A stretch of 64,000 bases of DNA from Shinella lacus. GTDB lineage: Bacteria > Pseudomonadota > Alphaproteobacteria > Rhizobiales > Rhizobiaceae. The notes beneath the pieces were generated by a model, which searched no databases, had not been told where the DNA came from, and saw only the letters and a list, made by a program, of their open reading frames with translations. A program made the translations under genes and the position numbers. This document shows, in pieces, positions 6,230 through 8,927 of this stretch; the stretch's first letter is position 1, and the number at the start of each line of letters is the position of its first letter. The stretch is from NCBI RefSeq assembly GCF_010994755.1, contig NZ_WHSB02000001.1, positions 372,001 through 436,000 of the forward strand, in the 5' to 3' direction.

Positions 6230-6341
6230 AGGACGAATGGACGTGCTAAATCGCCTTGCCGAGCAAGTGTAAGGCGAGCACCGCTCGACATCCTCCCGGT
6301 AAGGATGGCACAACCCAATCGGCCCAGAAAAGGAATCAATC

Positions 6342-6581
6342 ATGGCAACCACGCCACGCAGACACGTGAATCCGAAAGACGCCGCAGAGGCACTGTTCAA
6401 GCCGATCAAGAAGGTCGCAGCGCCTGCGGTCGAACGGCCTGCCATTCCCAACACCAAGGAACTCGTTTCGCTGAAGATCGACGCCGATGTGCTGGCGCAT
6501 TTTCAGGCCGACGGACCCGGCTGGCAGGATCGCATGAACGACACCCTGCGCGCCGCCATGAAGCAGGCGGCCGGCAGCTAA
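6342..6581 (+). CDS. BrnA-like antitoxin, without a partner toxin gene
   Basis: 79 residues. The C-terminal half, LVSLKIDADVLAHFQADGPGWQDRMNDTLRAAM, matches the ribbon-helix-helix signature of BrnA-type antitoxins (VSLRID.DVL..F...GPGWQ..IN..LR). The Lys/Pro-rich N-terminal 40 residues are less conserved. BrnA normally follows brnT, a toxin gene of about 90 codons, but no such gene lies upstream. It may act as a stand-alone DNA-binding protein or be the remnant of a pair. Confidence 0.75.
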   Translation: MATTPRRHVNPKDAAEALFKPIKKVAAPAVERPAIPNTKELVSLKIDADVLAHFQADGPGWQDRMNDTLRAAMKQAAGS

Positions 6582-6607
6582 ATCCGAGGCCAGTCACCGT
6601 CCGTCAT

Positions 6608-6901
6608 TCAATACCCGGCCTCTTTCTGATGCCGGAAGGCCAGCACGTAGACCGCATCGTCGGCAGGTTCGTGGCGATACAGCACGACATAGCCGGAATC
6701 GCCGAAGGCGATCACCAGTTCGCGCAGTTCCGGCAGATCGGGGAACGGGCGGCCGATATCCGGCTTTGCTTCCAACAGCAGGAATTGCCGCTCGATGGCC
6801 TGGCCGGCGCGCCTCGCCGCTTCCGGCGCCTTGGCCGCCAGGAACTGGCGGCAGCGCTCAAGACCCTGCGCGGCCCCTTCCGTAACGATCAGTCGTGGCA
6901 C
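6608..6901 (-). CDS. RelE/ParE-superfamily toxin
   Basis: 97 residues. The order RLIVTEGAAQGLERCRQFL, RRAGQAIERQFLLLEAKPDIGRPFPDLPELRELVI, YVVLYRHEPADDAVYVLAFRHQKEAGY is that of ParE/RelE-fold toxins, with the conserved GRP and final FRHQKE segments. ParE members poison gyrase and RelE members cut ribosome-bound mRNA; I cannot tell which applies here. It overlaps the end of the antitoxin gene by 13 bp, the usual arrangement of such pairs. Confidence 0.85.
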   Translation of the reverse strand: MPRLIVTEGAAQGLERCRQFLAAKAPEAARRAGQAIERQFLLLEAKPDIGRPFPDLPELRELVIAFGDSGYVVLYRHEPADDAVYVLAFRHQKEAGY

Positions 6902-7161
6902 TCGGGCACGGCCTTTTCGTCCTCAGTGCCCCAGGTGTTCAGCCAGGCGCGGGCCTCCGCACCGCTCAGGTGCCGGCCGGTTTCCTGATAGGCCGCCCAG
7001 GACGACAAAGCCTCCTGCTTGAAGCTCTCGCGCGCTTCCTCGCGCTCGACATATTGCTGGATCGCCTCCAGCATGATCCAGTGCGGCGAACGGCGGCGCT
7101 GGCTGGCAAGCTGCTGCACGCGGCTTTTCAGTCCATCGTCGATCTTCAGGGATGTCGCCAT
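6889..7161 (-). CDS. Ribbon-helix-helix (CopG/ParD-like) antitoxin
   Basis: 90 residues from an ATG at 7161 with AGAGGTG upstream. The N-terminus (MATSLKIDDGLKSRVQQLASQRRRSPHWIMLEAIQQYVEREE) is a typical ribbon-helix-helix DNA-binding domain. The acidic and Trp-containing C-terminal half is the likely toxin-neutralising part. It precedes and overlaps the toxin gene. The dyad at 7174-7198, directly upstream of its ribosome-binding site, is the obvious autoregulatory operator. Confidence 0.87.
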   Translation of the reverse strand: MATSLKIDDGLKSRVQQLASQRRRSPHWIMLEAIQQYVEREEARESFKQEALSSWAAYQETGRHLSGAEARAWLNTWGTEDEKAVPECHD

Positions 7162-7173
7162 GGCTGCACCTCT

Positions 7174-7198
7174 TATCACAGAGTAATACCTCGTGATA
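7174..7198. promoter_or_regulatory. Dyad operator of the toxin-antitoxin operon
   Basis: Symmetric 25-bp element with pattern TATCAC-N3-GTA-N-TAC-N3-GTGATA centred at 7186. All 9 arm positions on each side are complementary. It starts 13 bp upstream of the antitoxin start codon, where autorepression by the antitoxin or the complex would be expected. Confidence 0.7.
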
Positions 7199-7250
7199 CT
7201 ATAGCCCCTCGCTCCTCTCCTGTCGACTCGCGCTCCAGACCCAGAGGCGT

Positions 7251-7811
7251 TTACGAGAAGGTGCGGCCGCCGTTGACGGTCAGGCGCTGGCCAGTGATGA
7301 AACGTGCGCGATCCGACGCCAGGAACGCCACCGCGTGGGCAATGTCTTCCGGCGAACCAAAACGCTTCATCGGGACCTGGTCGAGATAACGCTGCTTTCG
7401 TTCCGTTGTCATCCCGGCGTGTCGCTCGACAGGAATCCAGCCGGGAGACACCATGTTGACGGTAATGTTCTGGTCCGCCAGTTCCCGCGACGCCTCGATC
7501 TCCGCCACGCCACCCGCGTTGCAGGCGAGCGTCGTGTAGCCGCGCAGGCGCGCCGCGTCGTCGCAGGCTCTGACCAGCTCGGTGAAATAGGGGTTGAGGA
7601 TATCGGGAACGATGATGCCGATGACATGGGACTTGCGCATGACCAGCGAACGGGCAAGCGAGTTCGGCGTGTAGTTGAGCTCGCGGGCGAGCGCCCAAAC
7701 GCGCTGGCGGGTTTCTTCGCCGATGAACGAATCTTTCCGGTTGAGGACCTTGGAGACGGTCGCCGTGGAGACGCCGGCACGCCTGGCAATGTCCTTGATC
7801 GTGACTGTCAC
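7251..7811 (-). pseudogene. Chimeric ORF: LacI-family DNA-binding N-terminus fused to SDR C-terminus
   Basis: One uninterrupted frame joins two unrelated families. Residues 1 to about 108 are a LacI/GalR regulator: [20 protein letters not shown] helix-turn-helix, hinge ([11 protein letters not shown]) and the first part of the ligand-binding domain ([17 protein letters not shown]). At about 7465-7490 the reading switches inside RELADQNI to the last 70 or so residues of a short-chain dehydrogenase ([46 protein letters not shown]). The SDR cofactor site and catalytic Tyr-Lys are absent, as is most of the LacI sensor domain. An internal deletion joining two neighbouring genes is the simplest origin. 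The GTG at 7811, with GCGAGG ahead, is preferred over a GTG at 7844. Confidence 0.8.
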
Positions 7812-7981
7812 AAGCCCTCGCCGCTGCTCACCCTTGGCATCCACGTCGTTCTACCAGCGTCGTCCCGAAGCGTCCACCGGCGTCTCCGCCATGCAGCAGG
7901 AGCATGCCTACACTGCAAGCATATGCATTTTATCCGGGCATAGGATTGCTTATGTAATGGGCAACACAAAAGGAGTTGATC

Positions 7982-8131
7982 ATGAACGTTTTCGCAAAGC
8001 TCAAGAAGTACAACGCTGAACGCCGCGCCGTGCGCGAACTGGGTGCCCTCGACGACCGCGCCCTCCAGGACCTCGGCATCTCGCGTTCGAACATCCGTTC
8101 CGCCGTTGCCGGCCTCCTGGTCCTCGGCTGA
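7982..8131 (+). CDS. DUF1127 small protein
   Basis: 49 residues: starts MNVFAKLKKYNAERRAVREL and contains LDDRALQDLGISRSNI, the DUF1127 (YjiS-like) core. These short basic proteins are abundant in Rhizobiaceae; in Agrobacterium members have been linked to RNA turnover and to phosphate and carbon metabolism, but the role of this copy is unknown. AAAGGAG lies 7 bases before the ATG. It has its own terminator at 8185-8218, so it is probably a single-gene transcript. Confidence 0.9.
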   Translation: MNVFAKLKKYNAERRAVRELGALDDRALQDLGISRSNIRSAVAGLLVLG

Positions 8132-8184
8132 TACGACGCCCGGGAAGCCGGGCGCGGGCCGATGGCCTCTGAAAAAATTCAAGT

Positions 8185-8218
8185 AAAAGGGCGACTGTTT
8201 CCGACAGCCGCCCTTTTT
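8185..8218 (+). terminator. Intrinsic terminator of the DUF1127 gene
   Basis: Stem AGGGCG-a-CTGT / ACAG-c-CGCCCT with a 5-nt loop, preceded by AAAA and followed by TTTTTG. Confidence 0.88.
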
Positions 8219-8222
8219 GTTT

Positions 8223-8346
8223 TCAGGAACCGGCCGTGGCCGCAAGCAGACCGGCCAGCGGCGACGGTTCCGGCGAGAAGGCGTCATAGGCGCAGGGTGC
8301 TGCGAAGATGACGGCCGCCAGCATCAAGACGAGGATGCGTTTCATC
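8223..8346 (-). pseudogene. Possible frameshifted small exported peptide gene
   Basis: An ATG at 8346 with AGAGG upstream opens a frame of only 20 codons. If one A is dropped from the run of four after the ATG, the frame would instead read MKRILVLMLAAVIFAAP..., a 40-residue peptide with a clean signal-peptide-like start, ending at 8223. This looks like a small gene with a +1 frameshift, or a base-call error in the A run, but could be chance in high-GC DNA. Confidence 0.25.
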
Positions 8347-8369
8347 GAAACCTCTACCGTCCCGGCCCG

Positions 8370-8786
8370 TCAGACGAGCGCCAGCACGACGTCGATATTG
8401 CCGCGCGTCGCCTTCGAATAGGGGCAGGTCTGGTGGGCTTCGTCGATCAGGGCGCGCGCGACATCCGGCTCGATGCCCGGCAGGCTGACGTTCAGGCGGG
8501 CCTGAAGGAAATAGGCGTCGCCCGCCGTGCCGAGGTCGACTTCGGCATCGATGGCGGTTTCGGCCGGCAGGCGGATCTTGCGTTTGCCGGCGGCAAGACC
8601 GAGCGCGCCGATGAAGCAAGCGGACCAGCCAGCGGCAAAAAGCTGCTCGGGATTGGTGCCCGGCTTGCCGCTGCCCGGAGGCGAGAGGCGCACGTCGAGC
8701 TGCGTATCATCGCTGCGGGCCGCGCCATCGCGTCCGCCGTTGGTGTGGGTCCTGCCGGTGTAGAGAACCTTTTCGATCTTGGTCAT
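8370..8786 (-). CDS. ohr: Organic hydroperoxide resistance protein Ohr
   Basis: 138 residues, the exact family size. Ohr reduces organic and fatty-acid hydroperoxides with a Cys pair. The pair is present: Cys57 in FAAGWSACFIGAL and Cys121 in HQTCPYSKATRGN. The N-terminal EKVLYTGRTHTNGGRDG also matches Ohr rather than OsmC. AGGAG lies upstream of the ATG. No OhrR-type MarR regulator is nearby in the window. Confidence 0.95.
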   Translation of the reverse strand: MTKIEKVLYTGRTHTNGGRDGAARSDDTQLDVRLSPPGSGKPGTNPEQLFAAGWSACFIGALGLAAGKRKIRLPAETAIDAEVDLGTAGDAYFLQARLNVSLPGIEPDVARALIDEAHQTCPYSKATRGNIDVVLALV

Positions 8787-8927
8787 GAGGAAACTCCTTC
8801 GTTCTGTCGCACGCTGCGACGTTGTTGACGAGCGTGGTTTTGACGGATCGACGTATCCGGCATGTTTCCGGAAAAGAGCGAAATGTATCAGAGCGTAGCA
8901 CCCGCCTGCCGGGCTACCTTTTCATAC

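Follow-up and report, generated by a model that had tools for sequence, protein, structure and literature searches.

A lacI-SDR chimeric open reading frame in Shinella lacus, most likely a gene relic

The window, by which we mean the whole stretch of 64,000 nucleotides analysed here (positions 372,001-436,000 of its contig), carries on its minus strand an open reading frame (ORF) derived from two unrelated parents, a LacI-family regulator and a short-chain dehydrogenase (SDR). The chimeric nature of the frame and the abruptness of its join are confirmed by the present analysis. The relevant features of the locus are the following:

6603..7234, minus strand: ParDE-type toxin-antitoxin cassette (ParE 6608-6901, RHH antitoxin 6889-7161)
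7251..7811, minus strand: chimeric ORF, 186 aa with GTG start, 187 codons counting the stop
7251..7486, minus strand: SDR-derived part, the last 77-78 residues and the SDR's own stop
7484..7487, minus strand: the join, within codon 109, located by single-base comparison with 5 lacI and 7 SDR relatives
7487..7811, minus strand: lacI-derived part, approximately residues 1-108 of a 330-residue regulator (helix-turn-helix, hinge and the start of the sensor domain)
7662..7802, minus strand: LacI helix-turn-helix domain (Pfam, residues 4-50)
7815..7819, minus strand: GAGGG, 3 bases ahead of the GTG at 7811, a possible ribosome-binding site at close spacing
7887..8162, plus strand: DUF1127 gene (7982-8131) and the stretch upstream of it; 19 of the 20 other genus genomes have a match
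8370..8786, minus strand: osmC-like gene, in a block collinear with genomes G004 (from 8248) and G003 (from 8382)

A sequence-only reading of the locus had described a single ORF with a LacI-family DNA-binding head and an SDR tail. This is borne out: the frame of 186 aa is open and both Pfam domains score far above their cut-offs. The full LacI profile (PF00356, positions 1-46) matches residues 4-50 at 3.5e-19, so the head is intact, as that reading had it. The tail (residues 108-183) corresponds to positions 158-235 of the 236 in adh_short_C2, at 1.1e-20. Besides these two, no Pfam domain exceeded its own cut-off among the best 25 of 26 matches. In NCBIfam, regulator models covered roughly the first 100 residues, SDR models roughly the last 78, none of them near its own cut-off among the best 25 of 168 matches. 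The two-lobed core that binds ligand and dimerises is absent from the chimera, Peripla_BP_1 appearing only below cut-off at residues 62-109, whereas a whole LacI orthologue has both Peripla_BP_3 and Peripla_BP_1 (Pfam). Similarly, the chimera begins downstream of both the cofactor-binding motif and Y-x-x-x-K in the SDR alignment, and both are therefore missing; in SDRs, the glycine-rich motif binds the cofactor and Tyr-x-x-x-Lys is catalytic. Relative to whole relatives, the truncation is large for both parents. Retained are 107-108 of 330 regulator residues and 77-78 of approximately 245 SDR residues, that is, about one third of each, in agreement with the proposed loss of most of both genes. 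A second in-frame GTG lies upstream at 7844 and would extend the frame to 7251-7844 (197 aa).

The join can be placed within a few bases. DNA matches to whole lacI genes, 78-83% identical over the lacI part, end at 7487 in four genus genomes (G001, G008, G017, G018), at 7491 in L139 and at 7493 in L138. On the other side, the longest SDR match (L118) begins at 7485, while those in L135 and L097 reach only 7467. In the base-by-base comparison with five lacI and seven SDR relatives, agreement with lacI stops at 7487 and agreement with SDR starts from 7486-7484, in codon 109. None of the lacI relatives has the chimera's base at 7493 or 7490, two of the seven positions before 7487. Codon 109 encodes the opening R of RELADQNI, the stretch inside which the switch had been predicted, and the prediction is thus exact to the residue.

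It had also been proposed that short sequence similarity guided a deletion. We found no run of bases shared at the join among the lacI and SDR relatives, only isolated common bases. This speaks against similarity guidance, although weakly, because the comparison used relatives in place of the true parents, at a distance from the chimera of 17-22% (lacI DNA) and 34-42% (SDR protein). Neither repeats nor terminators that would explain the join were found. The open frame itself requires no selection, since 32.6% of 20,000 simulated joins between one lacI and one SDR gene remain open to the SDR's own stop.

The whole 330-aa regulator is present in nine distinct genomes after merging of duplicate loci: G001, G008, G017, G018, Ensifer adhaerens Lc04, Mesorhizobium soli NHI-8, two other Mesorhizobium and one Hyphomicrobiales bin. 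In all nine, the C-terminal part directly follows the head and is 63-100% identical to the copy of S. zoogloeoides. The first 106 residues of the chimera, helix-turn-helix and hinge included, are 79-90% identical to the whole regulators. Within the genus set of 21 genomes (searched at 1e-30), four carry whole lacI, one carries the chimera and 16 have no match. In five genomes (L140, L141, L148, L139 and L016) a PnrA/BMP-like gene starts right after lacI; the arrangement downstream of lacI is different in L138, L018 and L019. The next large same-strand genes in L015 (S. curvata) and L016 (Ensifer) encode a BMP-like binding protein and ABC transporter components (Pfam for L015). The chimera shares its head with the LacI regulator that stands by a PnrA/BMP nucleoside-type ABC operon in Shinella, Ensifer and Mesorhizobium soli, and of which other Mesorhizobium have more distant orthologues, but lacks approximately residues 109-330, all of the sensor core except its start. 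Beside the orthologue of Mesorhizobium B2-7-1, a divergent gene (L019:3831-4841) resembles by eye a nucleoside hydrolase, which would be in line with a nucleoside regulon. Mesorhizobium sp. 65-26 has a second, partial copy of the regulator C-terminus (L018:6794-7162; 66% over 123 aa) approximately 0.8 kb past its whole lacI.

In relatives, the bmp gene is preceded by two tandem copies of GTACACGTTTAMCT, whose starts are 22 bp apart. All five relatives with whole lacI that were searched possess the pair, nine of the ten sites being exact and one having one mismatch. From this conservation we infer a candidate operator pair of the intact regulator:

L015:6194-6229 (also in L139, L141, L148 and L016): tandem GTACACGTTTAMCT pair, candidate operator, by conservation

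The search covered six genomes (S. lacus and the five with whole lacI) and allowed one mismatch. Five further one-mismatch sites occur elsewhere in four of the five relatives, approximately the level of the controls (2-4 each). A near-palindrome of the same core, TAGKTAAACGTTTACYTA, is located approximately 140 bp before lacI in L018 and L019. The S. lacus genome contains no exact GTACACGTTTAMCT and a single lone one-mismatch site, against seven matches of the reversed control. No site within two mismatches occurs in the 64-kb window, which means little because only 0.14 would be expected there by chance.

The SDR tail is 58-66% identical to the nearest SDRs; over 78 residues, the ten SDR loci examined give 58-65%. 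The closest are on a Rhizobium plasmid (66%) and on pNGR234b of S. fredii (64%); several Hyphomicrobiales genomes give 59-64%. All ten SDRs examined end in VNGGRTL and one further residue. TGASRGLG or TGGSRSLG is found in nine of them and YA[SA]AK in all ten, always upstream of the join position. With the classical SDRs of this GWIPVERHA clade (Rhizobium, Sinorhizobium fredii pNGR234b, other Hyphomicrobiales) the chimera has in common the C-terminal 77-78 residues and a stop at about the native place; it differs from them by the absence of the first two thirds, cofactor and catalytic motifs included. The closest SDR, on the plasmid of Rhizobium sp. RCAM05350 (L118:7557-8234), may itself be broken, because it has no usual start, no in-frame glycine-rich stretch and no annotated gene beneath. 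Genes for a Gfo/Idh oxidoreductase and a sugar ABC transporter surround the Rhizobium copy.

According to the sequence-only reading, the two genes might have been neighbors before the deletion. Comparison of related genomes recovers separate lacI and SDR genes. An SDR of the same clade was not found near whole lacI in the nine genomes (approximately 0.7-8 kb on each side), nor was a lacI of the chimera's type found near the SDR at the ten loci examined. With both parents together in no stretch compared, former adjacency is unsupported. Two candidate ancestral arrangements were rejected. In S. curvata (L015, L148) lacI is preceded on its own strand by an SDR gene, but at 44% identity and in the order SDR-lacI, opposite to that of the fusion. 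In L097 a close SDR has a lacI upstream on the same strand, but it is another lacI (38%). The latter locus indicates that the order lacI-then-SDR is possible, though with a different lacI.

The stop of the chimera is separated from the ParDE cassette by 16 bases. Among the best 15 matches listed, the cassette is 81-84% identical to plasmid cassettes from Pseudomonas (P. aeruginosa), Achromobacter, Xanthomonas, Enterobacter and others. In one of these plasmids, the end of a Tn3-family transposase gene is approximately 0.65 kb away from the cassette. When 6300-8900 was used as a query against the genus set, the ParDE part was matched at length only in G008. In G003 and G004 the DUF1127 gene and the osmC block lie on separate contigs, and no relative in this search has ParDE, chimera, DUF1127 and osmC side by side. 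The chimera sits in a mosaic stretch, which is compatible with debris. Two further observations concern the same surroundings. Firstly, a BrnA-type antitoxin gene is located at 6342-6581. Secondly, another LacI-like regulator adjoins osmC in G004 (L142:5968-6996; a 342-aa ORF, 33% over the head); judged by eye, it has an apparent sugar ABC transporter operon, at the position that DUF1127 and the chimera occupy in the window.

Searches of the S. lacus genome for the remainder of the regulator gave only 25-42% matches (17 places), those for the remainder of the SDR only 28-42% matches (27 places; the best by E-value 36%) and those for a matching BMP gene only matches of 61% and 27%. Neither parent could be detected as a whole gene in the assembly.

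Measured over codons 2-106, dN between the chimera and five close relatives is 0.07-0.08 and dS 0.68-1.15; among themselves, these relatives give dN of 0.004-0.024 and dS of 0.45-1.20. The chimera's dN against three Mesorhizobium-type relatives is 0.115-0.126, which falls inside the range of 0.094-0.150 spanned by those five whole genes across this split. Among nine sequences, the chimera has six private residues, three of which (96, 99 and 100) are beside the join. Parsimony assigns nonsynonymous and synonymous changes (N/S) of 8.9/20.4 to its head branch and 50.3/186.4 to the other branches (Fisher p = 0.24); N/S is clearly higher on at least three of the latter (M, L138 and L019). Because the head branch includes the time before the join, N/S is mute on selection after it and decay is neither proven nor excluded. 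Codon bias is kept in both halves, with third-position GC of 0.85 and 0.74.

The AlphaFold model of the chimera, made from a shallow alignment of 16 rows each covering one half only, has mean pLDDT of 39.6, pTM of 0.26 and no strand of 3 or more residues. The whole LacI of L015, modeled from a likewise shallow alignment (7 rows), reaches pLDDT of 65.2 and pTM of 0.46, and its strands and helices alternate. This difference is compatible with a chimera unfolded beyond its head.

We suggest that the ORF is most likely a chimeric gene relic and not a working new regulator. A non-homologous join, by deletion or rearrangement, would have fused the first third of a lacI gene, with the frame preserved, to the final third of an SDR gene; searches of the genome recovered the remainder of neither. 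The product, if made, would do nothing useful, because it combines a regulator deprived of its ligand-sensing and subunit-pairing core with an SDR tail deprived of the cofactor site and catalytic residues. That the frame is still open could be accounted for by the approximately one-in-three chance of an in-frame join and by the little time that has presumably elapsed. In favor of the relic are the sharp bounds of both halves, the failure to detect their remaining parts, the usual neighbor or clear operator-like sites, the mosaic surroundings, the lack of a second fusion in the searches made, the rate at which simulated joins stay open and the AlphaFold contrast. Against it stand the intact frame, the codon bias in both halves, the head branch that is not significantly relaxed, the dN to Mesorhizobium-type relatives that does not exceed that of whole genes and the GAGGG before the GTG. 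The deletion scenario of the sequence-only reading is upheld in part: support exists for the abrupt join of two unrelated parents, for the intact helix-turn-helix and for the loss of most of both genes, but not for adjacency, similarity guidance or a dominant regulator.

The ORF might instead encode a working short DNA-binding protein, the head of which still blocks promoters at the old or a new operator, independently of any signal. We regard this as unlikely. The helix-turn-helix stretch is identical in four of the seven whole relatives aligned and one residue off in the other three, the frame is open and AlphaFold does place the helix-turn-helix and hinge helices, although at block-mean pLDDT of approximately 41-54. 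However, LacI heads detached from the core bind weakly, and here the dimerising and sensing core is gone. T58M, at the hinge helix or directly behind it, alters a residue common to all eight relatives. Further, searches of the S. lacus genome recovered neither a BMP orthologue as target gene nor clear counterparts of the relatives' operator-like sites. The same missing core, target gene and sites weigh against the truncated dominant regulator that had been envisaged for this locus. In a variant of the idea which we hold to be very unlikely, the chimera would be a newborn gene for a signal-blind DNA-binding protein, with the SDR tail taking over pairing or stabilisation from the lost core and the protein acting at new sites.

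Gluing of two sequences by an assembly or binning error is highly improbable as well. The assembly is indeed a draft (53 contigs, completeness 100, contamination estimate 4.23%) and no second genome has the join. On the other hand, the join is deep inside a long contig (matches extend on the same contig past 860,000), third positions are GC-rich in both halves, as in neighboring genes, and no whole parent that could supply a false join was detected elsewhere in the assembly.

A fixed fused family, in which LacI head and SDR tail share a role of their own, has the least chance, as no second genome with both halves in one place was found with the whole query in the genus (21), family (394) and class (385) sets, which overlap. 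The fusion occurs in one of the 21 genus genomes, in place of the same fused ORF throughout the relatives that the sequence-only reading had considered as the contrary outcome. Up to eight candidates were scored per genome in the family and class sets, and up to 8 or 14 per genome across the larger sets; the order and relatives sets (397 genomes each) were searched with the tail alone. The two halves were not close together at any of 80 of 533 genome_contigs loci, and in a pair check of 173 loci a head of at least 70% and a tail of at least 55% coincided only in four copies of the chimera's own locus. A scan of viral_contigs returned six stretches, none of them related. In 284 plasmid records, a single place covers at least 80% of the query, with low identity in the 30 of these 284 that were inspected. 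Phage records gave 182 matches, all below 60% identity; in 15 of them, coverage of the query is 80% or more (eight of the 15 inspected, low identity). Two apparent second fusions, H2 of Roseovarius and H4 of Rhodococcus, were rejected, as two annotated genes lie beneath their two separate pieces. The match in Rhodococcus koreensis (H3) is likewise in two pieces, and has no annotation. A LacI-SDR fusion is also absent from the openings of the abstracts among the matches listed in our literature search.

The putative relic resembles the prokaryotic gene remnants, or failed horizontally acquired genes, treated in PMC522871, in that fragments of whole genes lie in a mosaic stretch and no second copy is found; it differs from them in that two fragments happen to share one open frame. 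If our interpretation is correct, the locus represents a cleanly resolved case of gene debris that resembles a new two-domain protein. Automatic annotation could label the chimera a regulator or an SDR, and neither is whole. The most usable outcome may be a by-product: the putative operator and regulon of the intact relatives, presumably serving PnrA/BMP nucleoside-type uptake, which are directly testable.
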